From a virus: 21,754 bases of DNA. This document shows, one piece after another, positions 4,435 to 19,504 of this stretch; within the stretch, counting starts at the first letter, position 1, and every line of letters begins with the position of its first letter. A program made the translations under genes and the position numbers. The notes beneath the pieces were generated by a model, which was not told where the DNA came from, ran no database searches, and saw nothing but the letters and a program-made list of their open reading frames with translations. Location: IMG/VR virus record IMGVR_UViG_3300025426_000132, positions 1 to 21,754 of that record, one strand, 5' to 3'.

Positions 4435-4941
4435 TTATTTTATAAACTCATTTATATCTAGGTCGTAGTATAGACTATTGATTTTATGAATACCTAGTAG
4501 GTATAACACATAGCTACTCACACTACTTCCTCTTCCCACACCCCACACAATATTGTTTTTACGCATTGTGTCTACTAAGTATTTACAATATCTTAATAGT
4601 GGAAACATATCACGTTCTTGGAACAAGAGAAGTTCTTGCCCAACTCGTTGCAATTCTTCATCTGTTTTGCAACAATCTAATACCCATTTTGCAATGTCTA
4701 AATCATTGTATTCTTTTGGCATATACCAATTGCTTTGTAACTGAGTATCAAATTCTTCTACTGATATATCAAGCGGATCATACTTGACTATTTCAGGTAA
4801 ATTTTCAATCTCAAGTATGTCACTAAACAATATTGGTTTATCTACAAATACTGCATCTATTACCTTACGAGGATCCCGTAAATAAGCATTGCAAATATCA
4901 GTTTCGGTTAAAATTTGTCTACCATAGTTATCGTTATGCAT
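4435..4941 (-). CDS. DNA polymerase III alpha (DnaE)-like fragment, catalytic part missing
   Basis: The C-terminal part reads VWGVGRGSSVSSYVLYLLGI, then a YYDLDINEFI segment. This matches the start of the palm of bacterial DnaE, where a GPGRGS..GSLVAY.LGI motif is followed by DPL.Y.L.FERFLN. The preceding helices (RYCKYLVDTMRKNN) also fit DnaE. In DnaE the catalytic PDIDxDF aspartates come next, but this protein ends before them, with its stop abutting the next gene's AAGGAG. There is no PHP domain. It is therefore unlikely to be a polymerase and may bind DNA or another replication protein. I chose ATG 4941, 38 bases after the preceding stop. GTG 5022 would add 27 residues and overlap the upstream gene by 44 bases. 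No start has a clear Shine-Dalgarno. Confidence 0.65.
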   Translation of the reverse strand: MHNDNYGRQILTETDICNAYLRDPRKVIDAVFVDKPILFSDILEIENLPEIVKYDPLDISVEEFDTQLQSNWYMPKEYNDLDIAKWVLDCCKTDEELQRVGQELLLFQERDMFPLLRYCKYLVDTMRKNNIVWGVGRGSSVSSYVLYLLGIHKINSLYYDLDINEFIK

Positions 4942-4978
4942 ACAATATAATAACACATTCTTTGACAGAGTGCAAGAA

Positions 4979-5602
4979 TTATTTGTCCGTTTTATTATCA
5001 AACTGCGCAAATACAATTTCACTGGTGCTTACACTTAATTCTTTGACGATGAGTGGCTTTTCTTGCCAACTTAAGTATACTTCATCCCAGTCTGTAGTTG
5101 GTTTACCTAATCTAACCACTTTTCTTCCTTTGTTCTTTGGAACATAAGAATTGATTCTAGTAGAACTATCACTCCACCAACCTTTGTCAAAGAAAGGTCC
5201 CATATTGTCATCTAAACTTTGACAACAACTAACTCCGTCACTCATTCGTGAACATATTGATATATCACTAACAACCAATCTGCCTTCAGCTATTGAATTT
5301 AATTTTGTCATTAGCATGATGCCCATTATTTGATCATATGGTTCTTCTGGAAGTGTGCATACTTTCATATTAGCATTTAAATAATTTTCAATGGCATTGG
5401 TCTCAGTTTCACTACATGCTATAGAATTTTCCAAACACTCAGTTATAAAATATTTGATTCTTTCTAATGCAATGTTTTGCTCTTTGATTGATTCGGTTTC
5501 TACATTAAAATAAATATCTATTTCATAGACATTCATATAGAACTCACCCGTAAAGTGAGTACCCATAACTAAGTCAAAACTGCGTTGTATTCTTGCTGTC
5601 AT
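4979..5602 (-). CDS. Conserved hypothetical protein (207 aa)
   Basis: The protein contains MNVYEIDIYFNVETESIKEQ, an RIKYFI helix and a LPEEPYDQIMGIMLMTKLN segment, a pattern I recall from unknown proteins of T4-like cyanophages. Several cysteines cluster in the middle (SICSRMSDGVSCCQ). No catalytic motif, signal peptide or membrane segment is visible. Its ATG overlaps the previous stop as ATGA. It lies between fibre genes and the DnaE-like fragment and may be co-transcribed with both. Confidence 0.78.
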   Translation of the reverse strand: MTARIQRSFDLVMGTHFTGEFYMNVYEIDIYFNVETESIKEQNIALERIKYFITECLENSIACSETETNAIENYLNANMKVCTLPEEPYDQIMGIMLMTKLNSIAEGRLVVSDISICSRMSDGVSCCQSLDDNMGPFFDKGWWSDSSTRINSYVPKNKGRKVVRLGKPTTDWDEVYLSWQEKPLIVKELSVSTSEIVFAQFDNKTDK

Positions 5603-17756: not shown

Positions 17757-18239
17757 TTATTGCGTTTTTTTGCTTGCCAATATGGATTTGAGTATCTCAT
17801 TACGATCCAATAATGACCCTTCACCTACCGGGGTAGCTTCGATTTCTTTAGTTGAACTAGCTATTTTTTGATCCAATTGTGCTTTTTTCAACTGCAAATC
17901 AATCATTTTAAGCTTTTTGTTAAGCTTTGCAGTCTTAGCAGTAATAGCATGTCCTAACATACTACTTGCTGAATTGAATATCTCACTAGCAAATCTGCTA
18001 TCCACTTGCATGCCCAAGTCAAATAAATCCTTGTAACTACTTGTTGCTAAATTAGCCAATTCATCCATTTCAATATCACTTGCCTCTAATCCACGAACTT
18101 GGGGTAGAGCATTTTCTATTTTTTCTAGTGTATCTAGTGCATTCATAGTTACATCTTCAGCATATTCGGGGATAGGGATTTTAAGATCCCCGATTTCTTC
18201 TTCCGGTAGCTCAAATAATTCTGCGAGTTTTTTAGTAAT
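17757..18239 (-). CDS. 16: Small terminase subunit (T4 gp16-like), probable AUU start
   Basis: Small terminase recognises phage DNA and regulates the packaging motor gp17. The family pattern is a short N-terminal helix, a Pro/acidic linker, then a long helical hairpin. It is seen as KKLAELFELPEEE, the linker, and DLFDLGMQVDSRFASEIFNS with a following Lys/Leu coiled coil. The frame is open upstream to a TGA at 18255 but has no ATG, GTG or TTG before ATG 18146. That ATG would leave 129 residues, drop the conserved N-terminus and lacks a good ribosome site. AGGAG (18247-18251) lies 7 bases before ATT 18239, giving 160 residues against 164 in T4 gp16, so I chose ATT. ATT 18245 is possible but only 1 base from AGGAG. 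No gp17 is in the window. Confidence 0.6.
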   Translation of the reverse strand: MTKKLAELFELPEEEIGDLKIPIPEYAEDVTMNALDTLEKIENALPQVRGLEASDIEMDELANLATSSYKDLFDLGMQVDSRFASEIFNSASSMLGHAITAKTAKLNKKLKMIDLQLKKAQLDQKIASSTKEIEATPVGEGSLLDRNEILKSILASKKTQ

Positions 18240-18254
18240 TTTAATTCTCCTGTA

Positions 18255-19007
18255 TCATTTATTTAGTTTGCAATTAACACCGTGCCATCTAAAGTAATTA
18301 CCTATATTTGATGACTTGTTGCAAAACTCACATATTTTTATAGAATTTATTCTAGTAATCTGTTCGGCAACCACATGCGGATTATTTTCTAAAAATTTTT
18401 TACGTTTTACACTTTGTATATATCTAGCAGTATCCGATTTCCAAAATAGTGAACTAGATTTACTTAACAATTTTTTTGTAGATTCACTAACTGTCCTATC
18501 TCTGTCAGACCAGGCTGCAATCATTTTATTTTTTGTCAATTCAGATTTTGGTATATTTTTTGTCTTGTTGGATAATTTTTGTTTATGCTCATCAGATAAT
18601 GGTTTCTTTTGCTTTCCAGTGTTAGTTTCTGTAATATTTTTAACAAACTGTTGTCTGAATAATGCGTATTCCCTAGATGAAATATTATACCTATTTTGCT
18701 TAGAACCTGCACGACACATTGACCATAAGCCAAAAATCATTTTTTTCTTAGCTGGTCCGTCAGTCATTCTAACTAATAATTTATGACAAACAAAATGTTC
18801 TCTAGCAGTTAATTTTATCCTATTTACTTTATCATTGGGATTACCATCTAACCAACCAATTGGGCCTTCTCTAACTCTATTTTTATAAAAAGATTCGGGA
18901 ATGATATGGTGATTTTCATAATACTCATTCGGTATTATTTTTCGGATTTTTGCATGCTGTATTATTTTATAATACAAATCGGTATATTTGTTCTTGATAA
19001 ATATCAT
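18255..19007 (-). CDS. Free-standing HNH homing endonuclease
   Basis: The 250-residue protein has the phage HNH pattern: ENHHIIP (His33/34), a central Asn near 62 and LTAREHFVCH (His71, His75). A NUMOD3-like stretch GKQKKPLSDEHKQKLS lies at 131-146. The C-terminal zinc finger is CEFC..HGVNC (Cys226, Cys229, His242, Cys246). Such enzymes cut phage genomes lacking the gene, usually close by, and spread by repair. It sits between intact gp4 and gp16-like genes with no sign of an intron. I chose ATG 19007 because AAGGAG (19017-19022) lies 9 bases ahead; ATG 19025 is upstream of that site and would give 256 residues. Its last codons overlap a promoter-like AATAAATG, and its TGA is in frame with the gp16-like gene. 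Confidence 0.9.
   Translation of the reverse strand: MIFIKNKYTDLYYKIIQHAKIRKIIPNEYYENHHIIPESFYKNRVREGPIGWLDGNPNDKVNRIKLTAREHFVCHKLLVRMTDGPAKKKMIFGLWSMCRAGSKQNRYNISSREYALFRQQFVKNITETNTGKQKKPLSDEHKQKLSNKTKNIPKSELTKNKMIAAWSDRDRTVSESTKKLLSKSSSLFWKSDTARYIQSVKRKKFLENNPHVVAEQITRINSIKICEFCNKSSNIGNYFRWHGVNCKLNK
18256..18263 (-). promoter_or_regulatory. Possible late promoter core AATAAATG before gp16-like gene
   Basis: CTAAATAAATGATACAGGAG on the minus strand combines a NATAAAT core, inside the endonuclease stop region, with the AGGAG ribosome site of the gp16-like gene. It resembles CTAAATAAATAA at 6753-6764, which also overlaps a stop codon. Confidence 0.35.
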
Positions 19008-19034
19008 TGCTGATTGCTCCTTCATAGCGTTAGA

Positions 19035-19064
19035 GTAGTTGGGAACGCCAATTCCGCGAACTAC
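19035..19064 (-). repeat. Hairpin between gp4 and the homing endonuclease
   Basis: GTAGTT and AACTAC form a 6-bp outer stem and GGAA/TTCC a 4-bp inner stem around TTGGCG, with a small internal loop. It lies just after the GATAAATA core and before the AAGGAG of the endonuclease. It lacks a T-run, so it is not a standard terminator. It may stabilise the message or be a remnant of the insertion junction. Confidence 0.55.
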
Positions 19065-19069
19065 ACTAT

Positions 19070-19077
19070 TATTTATC
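19070..19077 (-). promoter_or_regulatory. T4-type late promoter core GATAAATA at the end of gp4
   Basis: The TAA stop of gp4 is part of GATAAATAATAG on the minus strand. It would transcribe the homing endonuclease and perhaps the gp16-like gene late in infection. Confidence 0.55.
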
Positions 19078-19504
19078 TTTTTCCATTACGAAAAATATCG
19101 GTTTCACTTATAACCCTAAATGTGAAGCCATTTTGCTTACAATATAGATTTGCCGCGGCAAATTTTGCCATATTAACAATAGCATGTGCTTTATCATGTT
19201 TACTTTTCGCTTCATTAAGTGAGGTTTGTGCTTTTGGTTTCACTTCAATAACTTCAGCTTTTTGATGTCCATATTTATTTGTGTAAACGACAAAAAAATC
19301 AGGAATATAATTTGCTCTTTTACCGGTCAATGGATTTGCATATGGAATTACAATAGCTTCACTAGCCCATTTAGAAATGCTTTTATTAGTATCTAAAAAA
19401 TGCATTACTTGCATTTCCCATCCACTACGATATCTAGGTAAGTGTTTACCTATATACTTTTCAGGTTGAGTAGGAGTGAATACACCTTGTGCAAAATTTG
19501 CCAT
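19073..19504 (-). CDS. 4: Head completion nuclease (T4 gp4-like)
   Basis: T4 gp4 acts on filled heads before tail joining and has a PD-(D/E)xK nuclease-like fold related to TnsA. This 143-residue protein matches its length (150) and motifs: RYRSGWEMQVMHFLD with Glu30, then Pro68-Asp69 in ANYIPDFFVVY, and the EVIEVKP strand with Glu87 and Lys89. The nuclease residues appear intact. Its ATG overlaps the preceding stop as TAATG. Downstream lies the homing endonuclease; in phages without that gene gp4 and the gp16-like gene would be neighbours, and gp4 may carry the cutting site. Confidence 0.88.
   Translation of the reverse strand: MANFAQGVFTPTQPEKYIGKHLPRYRSGWEMQVMHFLDTNKSISKWASEAIVIPYANPLTGKRANYIPDFFVVYTNKYGHQKAEVIEVKPKAQTSLNEAKSKHDKAHAIVNMAKFAAANLYCKQNGFTFRVISETDIFRNGKR

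Follow-up and report, generated by a model that had tools for sequence, protein, structure and literature searches.

Apparent AUU initiation of a gp16-like gene behind homing endonucleases in T4-like phages

The free-standing mob and seg endonuclease genes of phage T4 lie between conserved genes, are expressed from native promoters and in some cases have, embedded in the endonuclease ORF, the promoter that serves the next gene downstream (PMC2988022). The elements described here are similar, in that HNH or GIY-YIG genes have been inserted between conserved genes and use native promoters, but differ in that the start codon of the downstream gene itself appears to be displaced and replaced by a Shine-Dalgarno (SD) sequence plus AUU; we found no description of such a start-codon replacement behind an endonuclease in the open-access papers searched. 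Among host genes, infC (encoding IF3) of Escherichia coli has an AUU start codon, as cited in PMC5472188, and Streptomyces sigR has a GTC start, misread by gene callers, that sets the IF3-dependent output of a sigma factor (PMC5472188). As with infC, the phage gene is an intact gene of an essential type that seems to be initiated at AUU, and sensitivity to IF3 may be supposed by analogy; unlike infC, which is a conserved, autoregulated host gene, AUU in the phages is sporadic, recurrent and tied either to mobile-gene insertion or to a fixed SD cassette. The likeness to sigR lies in the non-canonical start, and gp55-like late sigma genes of phages are among those opened by the AUU cassette, but sigR is a host gene with one codon and vertical inheritance. 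Within T4-type phages, a product of T4 gene 26 has an internal AUU start, which differs from the present case in yielding a second product from within a gene, rather than being the main start behind an endonuclease.

Layout of the locus and identity of the gene

The stretch of DNA analysed, hereafter the window, is positions 1 to 21,754 (its full 21,754 nucleotides) of IMG/VR record IMGVR_UViG_3300025426_000132; locus numbers (L plus digits) denote related contigs with which it was compared. On its minus strand the window has a block of T4-like late genes in which a gp4-like gene is followed by an HNH endonuclease gene and then a gp16-like gene, with the following features:

17757-18239, minus strand: gp16-like gene, 160 codons from AUU; matches phrog_16202, function unproven; homologues have ATG at the same codon
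18237-18239, minus strand: putative AUU start codon, at the codon position of the ATG in insert-free loci (178 of 178 listed)
18241-18258, minus strand: mini-ORF ATG ATA CAG GAG AAT TAA (MIQEN*), read from the sequence; comparable remnants in L093, L217 and L084
18247-18251, minus strand: Shine-Dalgarno AGGAG, 7 nt before AUU; spacer AATTAAA; duplex -7.4 kcal/mol
18255-19007, minus strand: HNH homing endonuclease, 250 aa from ATG 19007; phrog_655, E 9.7e-37; lacking in insert-free relatives
18260-18265, minus strand: TAAATA late-promoter-like hexamer within the 3' end of the endonuclease gene, 20 nt upstream of AUU
19017-19068, minus strand: endonuclease leader with a predicted hairpin GUAGUU...AACUAC, then SD AAGGAG (19022-19017), from folding of 8 leaders
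19070-19075, minus strand: TAAATA late-promoter-like hexamer before the endonuclease
19073-19504, minus strand: gp4-like head completion/closure protein; phrog_218, E 7.5e-41; the left neighbour that defines the insertion

The endonuclease and the gp16-like ORF of the window share one frame and are separated by a single TGA (18257-18255), up to which the gp16-like frame is open; the first in-frame ATG, GTG or TTG is the ATG at 18146. The earlier note, made from the sequence alone, had read the frame in this way, with no standard start between the TGA and 18146, an AGGAG 7 nt before ATT 18239 and a product of 160 residues, all of which are borne out. Absent from that note is an out-of-frame ATG (18258-18256) that overlaps the endonuclease stop and opens the five-codon MIQEN* mini-ORF, the end of which lies 1 nt before the AUU.

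The same note had called the gene a gp16-like small terminase, an identity that was not established. The window protein matches phrog_16202, a family of unassigned function. The small-terminase family phrog_445, which T4 gp16 itself matches, is linked to 16 of 59 family members by weak matches (best 1.5e-5, the window protein not being among them) in which coiled-coil bias is possible. No T4 gp16 profile match was obtained: hhalign of the family against 8 T4-type gp16 proteins gave a probability of 0.1%, with no phrog_735 match, and a search with a structure model (mean pLDDT 72.6, pTM 0.39) gave no PDB match at E <= 0.001. The gene order is also unlike the 15-16-17 order of T4, the neighbours being the gp4-like gene and a 201-aa ORF without a PHROG match, with no adjoining large terminase. 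We regard the small terminase label as weakly supported and use gp16-like as a placeholder.

The HNH gene gives a family profile match and T4 MobE-family matches by tblastn, and relatives have an empty site between the flanking conserved genes; it is probably a mob-like free-standing homing endonuclease, with putative cleavage and preferential inheritance. A leader of the form GTGTAGTTCGCGG...CCAACTACTCTAAC..AAGGAG..CAGCAATG, with a predicted hairpin, is common to this endonuclease group (window 19068-19007, minus strand; L038, L041, L184, L241, L244 and L245; a further copy in L578 near 15327), and in L184 and L241 the stem still pairs despite a changed sequence (GAGG/CCUC). The predicted fold looks like a conserved RNA control element of these mobile genes. 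Elsewhere in the window (4435-5602, minus strand) are two overlapping ORFs, the downstream one with GVGRGSSVSSYVLYLLGI, which we take to resemble a bacterial DNA polymerase III alpha motif.

The ancestral start codon and the recurrence of AUU

A protein-based IMG/VR search listed 80 close loci, and three homology searches together with pattern scans gave a table of at least 227 distinct loci, the counts being of the matches listed. In the alignment of IMG/VR loci, the protein of insert-free relatives begins MTKKLxELFELP, its ATG lying exactly at ATT 18239 and 3-50 nt after the gp4-like stop. Among the loci listed, every one of the 178 distinct insert-free loci whose N terminus is recognisable starts with ATG; two more, initially flagged as ACC or ACG, had been aligned at an internal codon and have an ATG a few codons upstream. 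The gp4-like and displaced genes adjoin in 178 distinct loci, which represent the empty site for the endonuclease. The earlier note had proposed comparison with endonuclease-free relatives as a check, and the homologues start at the position of ATT 18239 and not at that of Met 18146, a column that is Met in 1 of 59 diverse homologues. Its proposal of an AUU start is thereby strongly supported, as is its suggestion that ATG was lost with the arrival of the endonuclease, since all 178 insert-free loci have ATG and ATH occurs only behind an endonuclease or remnant. The ATG to ATT change that it placed at 18245 was misplaced, the alignment putting the ancestral ATG at 18239.

As in an infC-type AUU gene, the ATT stands at the homologous codon, an SD is present and there is no alternative in-frame start; several AUU carriers have no ATG, GTG or TTG for 46-49 codons past the AUU. 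Codons 2-12 of ten AUU carriers, compared with their nearest insert-free relatives, show in sum 45 synonymous and 10 nonsynonymous differences, where 20% synonymous would be expected without constraint; part of this divergence is older than the insertion, and the AUU clade L090/L216/L383 is still mostly conserved. Assignment of AUU 18239 as the start of the gp16-like gene is, on these comparisons, well supported. Ribosomes would presumably initiate there with fMet, and a regulatory role in the style of host infC and IF3 is possible by analogy.

The AUU allele of the window is shared by contigs L001, L002 and L004, from three samples. IMG/VR was scanned with an ATH-at-start pattern and a looser version of it, and later searches added L383 and L515. 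ATT was found at the homologous codon in at least 10 lineages besides the window, each with an endonuclease or remnant; AUU or AUC is tabulated for 11 loci, plus the fragment L093 and L515, again all with an endonuclease or remnant. Not counting the window, AUU (AUC in one case) stands at this codon in a dozen or more divergent phages. The preceding element is of the HNH type in the window, L033, L090, L092, L216 and L087 (the last with ATC), of the GIY-YIG type in L088 and L218, and an internally deleted endonuclease remnant in L084, L093 and L217. Two lineages, L268 and L406, have a GTG start behind an endonuclease, and six clusters retain ATG; ATG is retained, at the same site, by relatives of the window endonuclease that are 50% identical to it.

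Homology searches unconditioned on start codon gave a non-ATG start in 9 of 12 endonuclease clusters and in none of the 57 others (Fisher p = 4e-9); three of the nine are query lineages, which somewhat inflates the frequency and leaves the exclusivity unaffected. On a quick maximum-likelihood protein tree, AUU requires at least 8 separate changes, forced by well-supported branches. The same ATH pattern applied to 85,000 prokaryote genomes returned unrelated proteins only and no ATH-started homologue, and every AUU carrier is a metagenome-assembled contig. As judged from the contigs compared, the change from ATG to AUU at the gp16-like start is tied solely to endonucleases or their remnants at this gene.

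The gp4-like/gp16-like intergenic site is, in addition, a hotspot for unrelated, non-endonuclease ORFs (L008, L045, L098, L102, L103, L143, L159 and L179), and behind such inserts the gp16-like gene has ATG in all cases. A small Cys-rich ORF (MKTCELCN.../MYKTCELCD...) before the gene persists with and without a longer insert, as in L142, L168 and L212 (141-144 nt) versus L179 (1032 nt) and in L119 (160 nt) versus L143 (873 nt).

Promoter, Shine-Dalgarno sequence and codon at the insertion junctions

In 11 of 11 measured AUU/AUC carriers, GGAG (or GGGG) lies exactly 7 nt before the codon; GGAG at 4-10 nt upstream occurs in 0 of 262 insert-free ATG loci. Anti-SD duplex energies behind endonucleases are graded by codon, being -6.4 to -9.1 kcal/mol for AUU/AUC, -5.6 to -6.0 for GUG and -4.6 to +1.8 for AUG, and the median for insert-free AUG loci is -3.0. 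TAAATA lies 4-6 nt before the ATG in 150 of the 178 insert-free loci, and 3-7 nt upstream in 5 of the 6 endonuclease clusters with AUG and in none of the 14 with another start codon (p = 4e-4). In short, a TAAATA adjoining the gene goes with AUG and no SD, and a displaced TAAATA with a strong SD and AUU or GUG. RNA folding around the start did not consistently separate AUU from AUG loci.

The T4 late-promoter box is numbered from -13 (PMC2988020), and with this numbering applied to the TAAATA spacing, +1 would fall at or beside the A of the ATG; the criterion used for a T4 late promoter was a box of the TATAAATA type roughly a helical turn ahead of where the transcript begins. The spacing suggests that the insert-free AUG mRNAs may be leaderless in these T4-like phages. 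TAAATA-ATG arrangements without an SD are seen in, for example, L022, L361 and L373, and similar ones occur at window 1239-1227 and 5846-5835.

In L216 (set beside L361), L383 (set beside L373) and L088 the native promoter and ATG are found at the 5' junction, where they are now read by the endonuclease, and the gene stands at a 3' SD-AUU. Without an insert, L373 reads CTATACCGCAAAAGCGGTAAATATGGT-ATG-ACTAAA; with one, L383 reads CTATACCGCAAAAGCGGTAAATATGGT-ATG-AACTTATTT... and then AAGGAGAAACAAA-ATT-ACTAAA. L092 retains a stub of the old gene start. At the sequence level, these junctions show takeover of the native start by endonucleases in several lineages. The window HNH is unlike such start-capturing elements, having a leader and SD of its own. 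L184, L241 and L242, its nearest relatives at this site, end in CTAAATAACATATGAC with the gene using ATG, whereas the window reads CTAAATAAATGATACAGGAGAATTAAAATTAC at this position; the window TAAATA (18260-18265) is homologous to CTAAATAACATATGAC of L184, where it lies 4 nt before the ATG start. We interpret CTAAATAAATGATACAGGAGAATTAAAATTAC as probably the native ATG plus a footprint of 19 nt left by an earlier element of the AUU type, covering MIQEN*. Several unrelated endonucleases share C-terminal codons that encode the SD, ending in KEN* or (K/L)E(N/K/S)QNY*, and the cassette may therefore also move by recombination. The likeness of the 3' cassettes also means that some AUU gains may be one recombined cassette rather than independent inventions, which counts against the explanation preferred here.

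That explanation, which we consider likely, is that the gene is translated from AUU 18239 after endonuclease insertion, via an SD-AUU cassette that replaces the AUG. The ancestral layout would have been a T4-late-type TAAATA 4-6 nt before AUG, without an SD. Homing endonuclease genes would have inserted repeatedly at the gp16-like start site and in several lineages seized the native promoter and AUG, leaving the displaced gene to start from a cassette that closes the element on its 3' side, AAGGAGAAnYAAA followed by AUU instead of AUG; in the window, the upstream HNH endonuclease would now precede the 19-nt footprint of such a cassette. Ribosomes would start at AUU through SD pairing, probably aided, through translational coupling, by ribosomes that finish the endonuclease or the mini-ORF immediately before it. 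A point against the preferred explanation is that AUU is a much poorer initiator than AUG and is disfavoured by IF3, so that, if nothing maintained the AUU, it should revert by a single base change. Our best guess is that AUU is retained because the weak codon offsets the strong SD, holding output near the ancestral level, which fits best because of the graded SD energies and the gp55 cases described below; it is possible that protection from re-cutting and coupling-based addiction act together. Also counted against the preferred explanation are L265, a remnant-bearing exception that has ATG without a proximal TAAATA, and the retention in the window of a TAAATA 20 nt upstream.

The cassette at other genes and alternative explanations

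IMG/VR was scanned for AAGGAGAANYAAAATTA, with an ORF of at least 100 codons and no nearby standard start required; among the matches listed, up to 120 stretches, at least 17 distinct genes share the frame of the ATT, and neither of the two other frames gave any. The SD-AUU genes found include those for gp55-like late sigma factors, for the gp19-like tail tube, a MazG-like hydrolase and SSB, for a gp15-like sheath stabiliser that follows a GIY-YIG endonuclease, and for gp21-like proteases behind an endonuclease or remnant. The cultured homologues checked have ATG (gp55, gp21 and gp15) or GTG (pf16 gp19). Five gp55-like genes have AUU with an SD of -8.7 to -9.2, and one relative has AUG with an SD of -6.1. 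Apparent AUU starts of gp55-like late sigma genes, each following a strong SD and not preceded by an endonuclease, occur in L529, L499, L530, L463 and L489. Because of the gp55-like cases, the SD-AUU trade-off appears not to be confined to endonuclease insertions. In 375 kb (450 ORFs) from three AUU-carrier records no other clean AUU gene preceded by a GGAG SD was found, with a filter that also excludes genes that, like L092, have a TTG close by, so that SD-AUU use is apparently rare per genome. Tentatively, and with rather more doubt than confidence, AAGGAGAAnYAAA-AUU might be a recurrent cassette of T4-like core genes (late sigma factor, prohead protease, sheath terminator, tail tube, SSB and a packaging-type gene) that is exchanged or re-invented when endonucleases seize the AUG, and that sets a deliberately low, IF3-sensitive output.

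AUU might instead serve mainly for immunity, if the endonuclease recognition site spans the conserved start (ATGACNAARAAR), such that ATT or GTG destroys it and the strong SD then compensates. Such a role is consistent with the non-ATG 3' copy (AUU or GUG) of most start-site-capturing endonucleases, with the ATG mostly left by upstream inserts, with the high conservation of the target codons, and with the replacement of sequence flanking the cut site known for T4 free-standing endonucleases (PMC2988022). However, two unrelated nuclease types (HNH and GIY-YIG) would need the same base, the insertion already alters the sequence 5' of the codon, and gp55-like genes without an endonuclease use the same AUU cassette; immunity as the main cause is thus unlikely. 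We give similarly limited credence to addiction, by which AUU together with the overlap or 1-nt spacing would tie an essential gene to endonuclease translation and make loss of the endonuclease costly. The SD does lie inside the endonuclease ORF, the stop commonly reads TAA-A-ATT or forms the overlap AATTACTAR, and embedded promoters that act in this way have been described in T4 (PMC2988022), but AUU survives large endonuclease deletions with differing stop positions (L084, L093 and L217).

A protein of 129 residues starting at Met 18146, the first standard in-frame start, is very improbable: this Met is not conserved, no GGAG precedes the codon, the conserved MTKKLxELFELP would be lost, and the 46-49 codons free of standard starts in other AUU carriers offer no equivalent; a start there was rejected. 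The earlier note had also considered stop readthrough, and in the window a single TGA separates two ORFs in one frame, yet a fusion of endonuclease and gene by UGA readthrough or frameshifting has a slim chance at best. Endonuclease-to-start distances are 15, 1, 1, 1, -8, -8, -8 and -16 nt, such that the frames differ among carriers and a shared readthrough or frameshift mechanism is unlikely; remnants have independent stops, and the SD spacing is fixed. An RF2-like frameshift, including one from the MIQEN mini-ORF, was rejected on the same differences in frame, several carriers also being without the UAA.

A sequencing or assembly error, which the earlier note had also raised, or a decayed gene is barely credible, for while ATT is one base from ATG, the ORF is intact, AUU occurs in many other lineages and samples, and the same allele in contigs from three samples (L001, L002 and L004) is not a read error. 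Homing endonucleases often reside in introns, but a self-splicing intron restoring the upstream ATG can be virtually dismissed, as no Rfam match to a group I or II intron RNA core was found at the gathering threshold and L033 leaves just 24 nt 5' and 1 nt 3' outside the endonuclease ORF.

The preferred explanation, translation from an SD-AUU cassette left at the insertion site, would have consequences for annotation and for the biology of these phages. Gene callers accept only ATG, GTG and TTG, and AUU-started essential phage genes would therefore be truncated or missed; at the window gene, a caller would lose 31 conserved residues. If real, these loci provide natural, replicated swaps of start codon versus Shine-Dalgarno strength at one gene, by which the purpose of a weak start codon would become directly testable, and they show a way in which the insertion of a mobile endonuclease exactly at the start of an essential gene may be tolerated.
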